A stretch of 33,045 nt of DNA from Actinomycetota bacterium (GTDB taxonomy: Bacteria; Actinomycetota; Actinomycetes; Nanopelagicales; Nanopelagicaceae). The notes beneath the pieces are model-generated. The model had not been told where the DNA came from and made no database searches. It was given only the letters and a program-made list of their open reading frames with translations. Location: positions 1 to 33,045 of the forward strand of contig JAQBVO010000014.1 of NCBI GenBank assembly GCA_027728065.1, written 5' to 3'. Below, piece by piece: positions 9,744 to 33,045 of the stretch (the first letter of the stretch is position 1; each line of letters opens with the position of its first letter). The translations under genes and the position numbers were made by a program.

Positions 9744-9869
9744 TGAAATCTCCTAGCAAGGACGCCGATTGCGACCTTCCCCAGCCGCCTTTTCGCACTT
9801 ACTAGTACCCTAATTACACACCCGTCACGCTCATACTGTCCAGCCTGACTTTAGGCATACGGGCCGGTA

Positions 9870-9889
9870 GGCGCTAGAGTTGGCGCTAG
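9870..9889 (+). repeat. 8-bp direct repeat upstream of the cold-shock gene
   Basis: GGCGCTAG occurs twice, at 9870-9877 and 9882-9889, 12 bases apart start to start. This is about one helical turn, as in protein-binding direct repeats. It lies about 120 bases before the csp start, in the presumed promoter zone of the 261-bp divergent spacer. No regulator is assigned and no convincing -35/-10 pair was found. Confidence 0.3.
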
Positions 9890-9956
9890 TCCGACGCTTA
9901 ATCAGTACCCGTTTCATGTAATACATATTCGGTATCGCTGGCGCAAGAGGAAGACC

Positions 9957-9979
9957 GTGGTCGGGGATTTCTCGGCCAC
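9957..9979 (+). promoter_or_regulatory. Leader hairpin just upstream of the cold-shock gene's ribosome binding site
   Basis: Positions 9957-9965 pair with 9971-9979 over nine base pairs, two of them G-T wobbles, with a five-base loop (9966-9970). AGGA of the ribosome site is at 9991-9994 and the ATG at 10005. Cold-shock mRNAs of other bacteria have structured leaders that change translation with temperature. This hairpin is placed to do that, or to protect the 5' end. The role is inference and the base pairing is visible directly. Confidence 0.45.
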
Positions 9980-10004
9980 CCACATATCGAAGGAAAAGTA
10001 AAAC

Positions 10005-10208
10005 ATGGCAACAGGTACAGTTAAGTGGTTCAACTCTGAAAAGGGTTTCGGTTTCATTGCAGTTGATGGTGGCGGACAAGATGTATTCGTTCACTACTCA
10101 GCAATCCAAGGAAACGGTTACAAGTCCCTTGAAGAGGGTCAGGCAGTTTCATTTGAGGTCGTACAGGGTCCAAAGGGTCCTCAGGCCGATGCAGTAAACC
10201 CTGCCTAA
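10005..10208 (+). CDS. Cold-shock protein (CspA family)
   Basis: 67-aa single-strand nucleic-acid binding protein with one OB-fold cold-shock domain. RNP1 is KGFGFIAV and RNP2 is VFVHYSAI, the canonical pair. It begins [14 protein letters not shown] as in most actinobacterial members. AGGA ten bases before the ATG decides the start. It is a single-gene unit: divergent from DUF3145, with a hairpin in the leader and a strong terminator 16 bases after the stop. Whether it is cold-induced or constitutive cannot be told from sequence. Confidence 0.96.
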
Positions 10209-10224
10209 TTCCCACCGCTTTATA

Positions 10225-10261
10225 AATAACCCCTACTGGAAACGGTAGGGGTTATTTTTTT
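10225..10261. terminator. Strong bidirectional intrinsic terminator between csp and the M23 peptidase
   Basis: A perfect 12-bp stem (AATAACCCCTAC at 10225-10236 with its complement at 10245-10256) around an 8-base loop ends in a run of seven T (10255-10261) on the plus strand. On the minus strand the stem is followed by TATAAA, which is less ideal. The right arm contains the stop codon of the convergent peptidase gene, so one structure closes both genes. Confidence 0.88.
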
Positions 10262-11044: not shown

Positions 11045-11118
11045 GGGGCGGTAGCTCAGTTGGTTAGAGCCCCGGACTCATAATCCGGTCGTCGTCGGTT
11101 CGAGCCCGACCCGCCCCA
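11045..11118 (+). tRNA. tRNA-Met (anticodon CAT)
   Basis: A 74-base cloverleaf folds completely. The acceptor GGGGCGG pairs with CCGCCCC, then discriminator A. D-arm GCTC/GAGC, anticodon stem CCGGA/TCCGG around CTCATAA, and T-arm GTCGG TTCGAGC CCGAC follow. CCA is not encoded. The G-C acceptor pairs and elongator-like D-arm argue against initiator tRNA. A lysidine-modified tRNA-Ile2 also has a CAT anticodon and cannot be excluded without modification-enzyme determinants. Its last nine bases start the 61-bp repeat that recurs at 22067, so it marks the left edge of the island. Confidence 0.93.
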
Positions 11119-11170
11119 CTCACAAGACTATTAACTCATCTCTTAAGGGCAGTTGGATTTAATCTTCTTC
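11110..11170 (+). repeat. Left copy of the 61-bp island-flanking direct repeat (att-like)
   Basis: It begins with the last nine bases of the tRNA-Met gene and runs 52 bases beyond. Aligned without gaps to 22067-22127 it has 56 identities and five substitutions. The shared segment includes ATTAACTCATCTCTTAAG (exact in both copies) and the last four codons plus stop of a minus-strand reading frame. The arrangement, intact tRNA on one side and a copy of its 3' end on the far side, is that of island integration at a tRNA gene. Confidence 0.85.
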
Positions 11171-30028: not shown

Positions 30029-31141
30029 ATGGCGCAGAGTAAGAGATTATCGGCCGGCATAACGCGCACTAATCGCGAGATGGCCGATGGCCGCACAATT
30101 CGCTATTACGACACTAAACACCAAACGCGTACTTCCCATGATCGCCGCCCAATCGAAGAGCAACCTGGAATTGGTGAACTGCGGCTAGATCCCTTAGTCA
30201 ATGAGTGGGTTGCAATGGCCGCGCACCGTCAAGGACGGGTTTTTTTACCACCAAAAGAGCTCTGCCCGCTATGCCCAACAACGAGTGAGCTTTTAACTGA
30301 GATTCCTGAATCTGATTATGAAGTAGTTGTCTTTGATAACCGCTCACCATCTCTGCGTCCACCAGATGCAGATTGGGCACTGCCTGATGTAGCTGGTCCA
30401 GATAGCGATTTAGGTACGGCCGCTGGAAAGTGCGAAGTGATCTGTTTTACCGCAGATCACGGAAAATCTTTTAAAGACTTATCCCCCGACCGCGTGCATG
30501 TATTACTTGAAGCCTGGATTGATCGAACAGAAGAGCTCTCTCTGGAGCCGTTTATCGAACATATCGCACCCTTTGAAAACCGCGGCGAAGAGATTGGCGT
30601 GACGCTTGCCCACCCGCACGGCCAGATCTATGCATACTCATACCTTCCACCACGTGTTGAAAAAATGTTAGCCACAGCCAATTCCTACAAGGCTTCAACG
30701 GGCAAAATCTTATTTGATCAGATCCTTGCGCGAGAAATCCGTGATCACAAGCGCATCATTGCGCGCAACAATGATTGGATTGCATATGTTCCCTATGCAT
30801 CACGATATCCATTTGAAATCCACATCGCACCTCTCGAGCCGGTCGCAGATTTGACCGAGCTCACCCAGGTCGCTCGCGATGGATTTGCACCAATTGCCTT
30901 GGAAATCATGAAGCGTTTGGATGGAGTCTTTGGAATTGAGATGGCCTATATCGCTGCCTGGCATCAAGCTCCAGTGCGAGTTGGCCGCGATGTACTGAGA
31001 CTGCACTGGCAGATTACAAGTGTTCGGCGCGCTCCTGGAAAGTTAAAGTATTTAGCAGGCTCTGAATCTGCGATGGGTGCATTTATTATGGATATGCGTC
31101 CAGAGCAATCAGCGGCTCAGCTTCGCAAAGTCAAGCTCTAA
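30029..31141 (+). CDS. galT: Galactose-1-phosphate uridylyltransferase
   Basis: 370 aa. Exchanges UMP between UDP-glucose and galactose 1-phosphate (Leloir pathway). The active-site HPHGQIY has His195 and the nucleophile His197. Cys79 and Cys82 in CPLCP are zinc ligands, and the later FEIHIAPLEP and WHQAPVR parts complete both HIT-like halves. The ATG is preceded by TAGAGT at 30014-30019 with nine bases between, suggesting a leaderless message. The gene appears intact. The galE start follows two bases after its stop but is cut off, and no galK is in view, so a complete Leloir pathway would need those genes elsewhere. Confidence 0.93.
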   Translation: MAQSKRLSAGITRTNREMADGRTIRYYDTKHQTRTSHDRRPIEEQPGIGELRLDPLVNEWVAMAAHRQGRVFLPPKELCPLCPTTSELLTEIPESDYEVVVFDNRSPSLRPPDADWALPDVAGPDSDLGTAAGKCEVICFTADHGKSFKDLSPDRVHVLLEAWIDRTEELSLEPFIEHIAPFENRGEEIGVTLAHPHGQIYAYSYLPPRVEKMLATANSYKASTGKILFDQILAREIRDHKRIIARNNDWIAYVPYASRYPFEIHIAPLEPVADLTELTQVARDGFAPIALEIMKRLDGVFGIEMAYIAAWHQAPVRVGRDVLRLHWQITSVRRAPGKLKYLAGSESAMGAFIMDMRPEQSAAQLRKVKL

Positions 31142-31492: not shown

Positions 31493-32614
31493 TTAATTAG
31501 ATGGTGCCGATCCAAGCGTAACTGTGAAGCTCTGCGATCCTCCCGAAGGTAAATCTACGGTAACGGTTACCTTCGATCCTGGCGCATATGATCTAATTCT
31601 AACAATCGCCCCGACGTTATCGGCTATCTTTAAACCATCAATAGATCTGATAATCGAACCAGCAGGAATTCCCGCTTTTTCAGCGCCCTCACCCGGGCTA
31701 AGTCTTAAGATCTTCGCCCCCGTACCCGTAAATGTTGTGTCAAAGAAAACACCTAAGACTGGTCGTGTTGATTTACCCGTTGAAATCAACTCATCGACAA
31801 CTCGCTTAGCCTCATTAAAGGGAATTGCAAAGCCAAGGCCAATGTTTCCGCTAGATCCACCACTTGAAAGTGATGCGATAGCTGAGTTGACACCGACGAT
31901 GCGACCAGATGAATCAAGGAGTGCTCCACCCGAGTTACCTGGATTAATTGCTGCATCGGTCTGGATCGCATTGACAAAGGACTCCGAACCTATACTTCCA
32001 GTTGTAACAGGGCGATTAAAGGCTGAGACGATTCCGCTTGTCACCGTACTTGCAAGTCCCAGAGGTGAACCAATCGCCACAACTGGATCTCCTACACTTA
32101 ATTTAGAGGAGTCACCGATGCTAATAATCGGAAGATTGCCCTTTTCCACTATGATCACGGCAATGTCATATGCGCTATCACGACCAACGATAGTTGCTGG
32201 GATCATATCCCCGTTAAGCAGCTCAACAATGATTGTGCCACTGGTTGCAGCCGCTGCAACGACGTGATTGTTGGTAATAATGTATGAAGAGGTCGCGTTA
32301 GTTTTATAAATTGATCCAGAGCCAGTGCCAGATCCAAAGGCAGCGTTGACTTTGATTGAGACAACCGATGGGGTAACTAAGGCAGCGATCGATCGCACAT
32401 CGATTGATGAGCCGCCAAGGCGAATCAAGGTACGGTTTGAGCTACACGTTCCGCTACTGGAGAGATAGATCGCCTGAGTTCGCTTATCAACGCATGCCTG
32501 TAGGCCAACTGGCTCAGAGATCGCCGCTGAAGCAACTCCTGCCACTACCGTTGCACCGAGAATAAAGCCAAGACCGATCTTTGTAACAGTTGATTTCACT
32601 TGTCTATCCCTCAT
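31493..32614 (-). CDS. Secreted/membrane HtrA-like S1C serine protease with PDZ domain
   Basis: 373 aa from ATG 32614. The frame opens at a TTG two codons earlier. A signal-anchor helix (about 10-32) is followed by a short Cys-containing segment (Cys41, Cys57) and a trypsin-like domain with His117 (NNHVV), Asp150 (SAYDIAV) and Ser228 (INPGNSGGALL). A PDZ domain at about 285-370 (RPVLGVFF, then AEKAGIPAGSIIRSIDG) ends the protein. It is expected to degrade or process misfolded proteins outside the membrane. GAGAG eight bases before ATG supports the start. The protein is the window's last complete gene before the tRNA-Asn fragment. Confidence 0.93.
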   Translation of the reverse strand: MRDRQVKSTVTKIGLGFILGATVVAGVASAAISEPVGLQACVDKRTQAIYLSSSGTCSSNRTLIRLGGSSIDVRSIAALVTPSVVSIKVNAAFGSGTGSGSIYKTNATSSYIITNNHVVAAAATSGTIIVELLNGDMIPATIVGRDSAYDIAVIIVEKGNLPIISIGDSSKLSVGDPVVAIGSPLGLASTVTSGIVSAFNRPVTTGSIGSESFVNAIQTDAAINPGNSGGALLDSSGRIVGVNSAIASLSSGGSSGNIGLGFAIPFNEAKRVVDELISTGKSTRPVLGVFFDTTFTGTGAKILRLSPGEGAEKAGIPAGSIIRSIDGLKIADNVGAIVRIRSYAPGSKVTVTVDLPSGGSQSFTVTLGSAPSN

Positions 32615-32740
32615 ATCCAAATCTCTCTCATCATCCTTTGCCTTCCAATGGCCAAACTACTCCTTCATCCTATTAATTCTCTGAGCATCCCCTGCTAAAG
32701 CAATGGTAATCAATGGGCGGGTTAGATGCATTTTTTAGGG

Positions 32741-32785
32741 CTCCCTGACTTGGATTCGAACCAAGAACCTGTCGATTAACAGTCG
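32741..32785 (-). tRNA. 3' fragment of tRNA-Asn (GTT), 5' half missing (att-like)
   Basis: On the minus strand the anticodon arm CGACTGTTAATCGAC, then the T-arm CTTGG TTCGAAT CCAAG and the 3' acceptor strand TCAGGGA plus G are intact. Anticodon GTT means Asn. The matching 5' acceptor TCCCTGA and a D-arm are absent upstream, and even the 5' side of the anticodon stem is altered beyond CGA. A functional tRNA is impossible. A tRNA 3' part starting in the anticodon arm is the usual core of tyrosine-integrase attachment sites. Confidence 0.8.
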
Positions 32786-32876
32786 TGCCAGTCTGGATTC
32801 TAAGCGTATCTCTAAGTGTCTTGCGGTAATGACTTACGCCTATTTCACGCCTGAAAGTACCAGGTAGAACCACTAG

Positions 32877-32909
32877 GTGTAAGGACGGTGTTAGGCAAGT
32901 GTTAGGCGA
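32877..32909 (+). repeat. Three 11-bp iterons next to the tRNA-Asn fragment
   Basis: GTGTAAGGACG, GTGTTAGGCAA and GTGTTAGGCGA follow head to tail at 32877, 32888 and 32899. The last two share GTGTTAGGC exactly, and the first matches it at seven of nine positions. A period of about one helical turn close to an attachment site fits arm-type integrase sites or excisionase sites. Confidence 0.55.
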
Positions 32910-33027
32910 TTCACTTTCCTTCTATGAGGATTTTTCGTCTGCCATCTTCTTTGGGCCTCATTCAACGGATATGAAAGGGCCTGAGCGAAAAACACTAGAC
33001 ACTTCCACCCTCTAAAAAGGAGAGAAT

Positions 33028-33045
33028 ATGTCCAGTCATTACCCT
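33028..33045 (+). CDS. Start of an unidentified gene cut by the window end (partial)
   Basis: ATG at 33028 follows AAAGGAGA with about four bases between, a strong ribosome site. Only MSSHYP is visible. It would be the first gene of the element bordering the tRNA-Asn fragment. No function can be assigned. Confidence 0.5.

Follow-up and report, generated by a model that had tools for sequence, protein, structure and literature searches.

A 46-nucleotide tRNA-Asn fragment as the very probable scar of an integrase-carrying element in a streamlined actinobacterial genome

The half tRNA-Asn gene near the right end of the window is almost certainly the scar of an integrase-carrying element that inserted into tRNA-Asn, the gene having been rebuilt at the other end of the element. 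The window, 33,045 nucleotides long, is the entire contig C26 of the genome G000, which comprises 45 contigs and 1.4 Mb and is estimated to be ~99% complete. Two copies of the attachment site (att), an integrase with its catalytic motifs, an empty site in relatives and matching repeats at the element ends were all observed directly. That C26 and a second contig, C34, carry opposite ends of a single element is our inference.

The original prediction described the 3' part of a tRNA-Asn as perfect from the anticodon arm onwards and its 5' half as gone, which is what the window holds. The displaced 3' fragment of tRNA-Asn(GTT) occupies positions 32740–32785 on the minus strand, some 260 bp before the contig ends, and represents one boundary of the element (att site). 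It reads CGACTGTTAATCGACAGGTTCTTGGTTCGAATCCAAGTCAGGGAGC and is an exact 46-nt match to positions 28–73 of the intact tRNA-Asn, with the 5' strand of the anticodon stem at one end and the gene's 3' terminus at the other. The first 27 nt of tRNA-Asn are missing, the bases ahead of the fragment are unrelated, and ARAGORN made no tRNA call on 32740–32785. A 43-nt query taken from the fragment, run against all 1.4 Mb of the assembly at up to three mismatches, found two sites only, the fragment itself and the intact tRNA-Asn on C34, while the reversed control pattern of the query gave zero matches in the same assembly. An exact match of 46 nt is far more than chance can account for.

To the right of the fragment, the original prediction expected an intact tRNA-Asn whose 3' bases are the same. 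The gene lies on C34 (C34:20400–20472), is recognized by holding the sole other copy of the 46-nt fragment in the assembly (C34:20427–20472), and has a consistent orientation. Its left neighbor is dnaG. The rebuilt tRNA-Asn is identical over 73 nt to the gene of many relatives, so the host retains a working tRNA. The integrase gene that was also expected in the neighborhood directly adjoins it, 94 bp to the right (C34:20567–21733, minus strand). Its product is a tyrosine integrase (Phage_integrase, E=5e-22; PHROG integrase, E=2.5e-69) in which all the catalytic motifs are present, namely R (ARRGE), K, HxxR, LGH and Y. Beyond the integrase, the gene order continues with a 240-aa protein without a family, an AlpA/HTH_17 protein that matches PHROG 66 “excisionase and transcriptional regulator” (9.7e-7), and a truncated gene of which the contig end leaves the first 19 codons only. 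The AlpA-like protein would control excision and the truncated gene may encode a replication initiator. At 0.45–0.47, the G+C content in the parts of the element differs little from the host's 0.48.

Relatives preserve the site in its empty form. We inspected 25 genomes of the same genus with a tRNA-Asn match, each of which has a single such match and lacks any additional 3' fragment. At its right end, C26 carries an HtrA-like serine protease gene (31493–32620, minus strand; Pfam Trypsin_2, PDZ), a galT-like gene (30029–31141, plus strand) and glpK, the latter two together forming a second synteny marker of the chromosomal flank. An htrA relative lies at most 1.5 kb after tRNA-Asn, on the dnaG contig, in 17 of the 25 relatives. 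Six more, in which htrA was not found at that place, have galT and glpK within ~10 kb after tRNA-Asn on the same contig, and the contigs of the remaining two end too early to judge. dnaG and either htrA or galT-glpK are accordingly joined across tRNA-Asn in 23 of the 25, and since these neighbors in relatives are split between C34 and C26 here, exactly at the tRNA, foreign DNA has been inserted. The contiguous flanks of the relatives, together with the intact tRNA and the integrase on C34, place the element to the right of the fragment, as had been proposed. The half gene might instead be an ancestral pseudogene or duplication with no insertion involved, as tRNA fragments can persist without elements, but the lone tRNA-Asn match of every relative, the flanks joined in relatives but split here and the integrase beside the intact copy leave this reading practically no probability.

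The regulatory-looking repeats that had been noticed at the start of the element proved to be real. Positions 32887–32907 (minus strand) carry the 21-bp sequence GCCTAACACTTGCCTAACACC, a direct repeat of two CCTAACAC units spaced 11 bp apart, and an exact copy is found at C34:20541–20561. The C34 copy lies 68 bp past the intact tRNA-Asn, the window copy 101 bp from the displaced fragment, and both have the same orientation relative to the element; no further copy was found at up to three mismatches in the window and C34. The window copy belongs to the element end opposite the integrase, which occupies the ~190 bp between the att fragment and an insertion sequence (32786–32976). The 21-bp repeats are probably integrase arm sites on both arms of attP, as their layout suggests, and the integrase would bind them.

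The gene with a strong ribosome site that had been assigned to the element is a different matter. The sequence and the site (AAAGGAGAGAATATG) are real, but what begins there is OrfA of an IS3-type insertion sequence: the left end of the latter covers 32977–33045 (plus strand), and OrfA begins near 33028 (MSSHYP...) and is cut by the contig end. These final 69 bp of the window have exact copies at C13:1097–1165 and at the start of C2 (C2:1–69), and 68 of the 69 bp recur on C31. The C13 copy continues into OrfA (MSSHYPAEFKQKAIELV..., HTH_Tnp_1 4.5e-8) and then OrfB (HTH_21 5.8e-7, rve 1.1e-16), that is, the OrfA helix-turn-helix and the OrfB HTH_21 and rve DDE core of the IS3 family, of which the window has the first 69 bp only. 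We also considered the 69-bp stretch as a regulatory module common to the elements, which is ruled out because the C13 copy is the start of an insertion sequence.

By these matches, C26 stops within the insertion sequence, ~190 bp inside the element, and it does so because the IS3-type sequence is repeated in the genome. C34 likewise ends in a 69-bp stretch that recurs in a sibling element on C31, so the assembly gap is explained on both sides. Searching the assembly for contigs that continue the element beyond C34 or C26 recovered only the C31 sibling and copies of the insertion sequence; the middle of the element is absent from the assembly and no contig spans it. As a contig end is 260 bp away from the fragment, at a place where shared 69-mers break the assembly, an artefact of assembly or binning might be suspected. 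It is highly improbable: the repeated insertion sequence accounts for the break, 190 bp with a correctly oriented arm repeat separate it from the fragment, and the flank genes are the syntenic neighbors of tRNA-Asn in relatives.

Insertion at tRNA-Asn very probably took the following course. The attP of the element carried an identical copy of the last 46 nt of tRNA-Asn. The tyrosine integrase recombined attP with the single chromosomal tRNA-Asn gene at the anticodon arm. The attP copy thereby completed the 5' 27 nt of the gene on the C34 side, where the intact gene, the dnaG flank and the integrase end lie, while the 46 nt of the old 3' part were displaced as a scar to the C26 side next to the htrA flank. 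In the excised circle, the attP junction is predicted to run from the arm repeat on the C26 side through CGACTG...GGGAGC into AAGTAGTCCC on the C34 side. Integration through the anticodon region with the tRNA rebuilt at the other end was the central claim of the original prediction, and the 46-nt duplication, the integrase and the empty site in relatives bear it out.

The genome holds at least three related elements, at tRNA-Asn, tRNA-Thr and tRNA-Val. The sibling at tRNA-Thr(CGT) comprises C31:3788–5113, with fragments at C25:510–555 and C25:934–980, and its integrase is 59% identical to that of C34; the sibling at tRNA-Val comprises C33:22132–23418, with a fragment at C45:182–227 and an integrase 57% identical to that of C34. 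Both share the layout of att sites, arm sites and integrase with the tRNA-Asn element. Similar 11-bp-spaced pairs occur at both of their ends, and CCTAACAC-type repeats precede each side of their displaced fragments on C25 and C45. In the C31 sibling the genes follow in the order seen on C34, and the gene that is cut short on C34 after 19 residues is present in full, encoding 276 aa. The 276-aa protein matches phage O-like replication initiators weakly (best E=2e-4); searches of plasmids and phages with it found nothing, and solved structures gave no meaningful match. A G-U pair was noticed in the acceptor stem of the rebuilt tRNA-Thr, as if its 3' half had been imported from elsewhere.

The tRNA-Thr locus bears on whether C34 and C26 belong together. 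C25 carries two successive tRNA-Thr 3' fragments 424 bp apart (98% and 79%), which suggests two successive or tandem insertions there. With this precedent, and with the middle of the element unassembled, the C34 and C26 ends could come from different members of a tandem array at tRNA-Asn. We regard this as unlikely, because the tRNA-Asn 3' part has only two copies in the assembly and the 21-bp arm repeats are identical at both ends, whereas those of the siblings differ. Estimated from the C31 sibling, the tRNA-Asn element would measure ~4 kb, or ~5 kb including the IS3-type insertion near its right end.

The tRNA-Val sibling shows in turn how such elements can degenerate. Its integrase reads HDLGPL where the others read HD(L/Q)RHL and has lost the HxxR arginine, so it is probably inactive. 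Decay of this kind does occur in the family, therefore, and an IS3-type copy sits near the right end of the tRNA-Asn element. The latter might thus be a decayed element as well, its ends being remnants that have lost the ability to excise. We consider this doubtful, though clearly less remote than a tandem array, in view of the C34 integrase, which is intact and complete in its catalytic motifs, of two att copies without a difference in 46 nt and of arm sites at both ends.

An integrase of this clade was present in 0 of the 36 genus genomes searched (best E ~1e-10, C-terminal part only). The nearest relative found, 64% identical, comes from a different actinobacterial MAG (L142), where it adjoins tRNA-Met and the arm motif recurs. 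An intact tRNA-Met in the window (11045–11119) seems to correspond to the tRNA that the L142 element uses, and no fragment of it was found within the window. Viral contigs gave no match with a single integrase sequence and distant relatives only, at 24–32% identity, with the alignment of the three integrases.

Integration at the anticodon arm of a tRNA gene with repair of the gene is a textbook principle. In the Islander collection, 2083 of 3919 islands are anticodon-centered and 3760 of 3919 have 3' fragments (PMC4383910), and by these frequencies the element belongs to an already known kind. It shares with Islander class “A” (anticodon-loop attachment) an intact tRNA and a same-orientation 3' fragment, a tyrosine integrase in between beside the tRNA, and an anticodon crossover. 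With C34 followed by the reversed C26, as ordered in relatives, the 3' fragment lies downstream of the tRNA in the same orientation, C34:20567–21733 places a tyrosine integrase inside the element, and the joined flanks of the relatives supply the empty site that Islander looks for. At least 2.4 kb of the element is assembled on C34 and 0.26 kb on C26, against an Islander range of 2–200 kb between tRNA and fragment; the middle of this element is not assembled, so its continuity is putative and its length an estimate.

Among better known elements, and as these are generally understood, pSAM2 and other AICEs share the actinobacterial host, a tyrosine integrase with a nearby Xis-like small protein, a replication-type gene and a tRNA target. 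The hallmarks of AICEs are an FtsK/SpoIIIE-type double-strand DNA transfer protein and a replication initiator gene of their own. On the assembled parts of our element there is no FtsK-like transfer gene, the replication gene is weakly O-like, and the size appears smaller. Phage satellites of the PICI-like type, again from general knowledge, share the integrase, an AlpA-like regulator, a replication-initiator-like protein and a small gene set. They are characterized by capsid or packaging interference genes and by mobilization through a helper phage, whereas the assembled parts here have no packaging or capsid-interference gene and the integrase relatives on viral contigs are distant. No conjugation, capsid or packaging gene was found on the C34 and C26 ends, and the element may spread as a satellite-like or integrative-plasmid-like passenger. 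Tycheposons, described in Prochlorococcus and reported in freshwater Methylophilaceae (PMC10872708), can be likened to it by description, as tRNA-targeting tyrosine recombinase elements in genome-streamlined plankton.

The present find adds a clear example, from a streamlined actinobacterial genome of 1.4 Mb in which several related elements occupy different tRNA genes. Elements with matched arm sites and displaced fragments form a natural set for studying how related integrases change their tRNA target. They are also a reminder that draft assemblies of streamlined genomes break at exactly such elements. We tentatively entertain, at somewhat less than even confidence, that they represent an undescribed family of minimal satellites or integrative plasmids (integrase, AlpA-like regulator, O-like replication initiator and small membrane protein) that radiated inside a single streamlined, planktonic actinobacterium to Asn, Thr and Val tRNA genes at least, by divergence of the integrase while the type of arm-site pair was kept.

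Several other loci of the genome carry tRNA copies or integrases. At C31:253–324, a sulfotransferase gene is followed by a 3' half resembling tRNA-Lys, with shorter similar stretches on C17, C2, C40 and C44; its origin by integration into the tRNA-Lys of C39 was rejected, as the acceptor-stem bases do not match the C39 gene. Intact or partial copies of tRNA-Tyr occur at C15:1163–2628, C15:7143–7198, C18:25798 and 27954, and C42:12–97. A split integrase and a DNA-methylase-like gene adjoin one of the copies on C15, and this locus is probably another island. Two more distant tyrosine integrases lie at C39:384–1989 beside tRNA-Lys and at C7:278–1402 near the contig start. Within the window, positions 9867–10258 (plus strand) match the cspA thermoregulator RNA family marginally (78.3 bits; gathering score 78).
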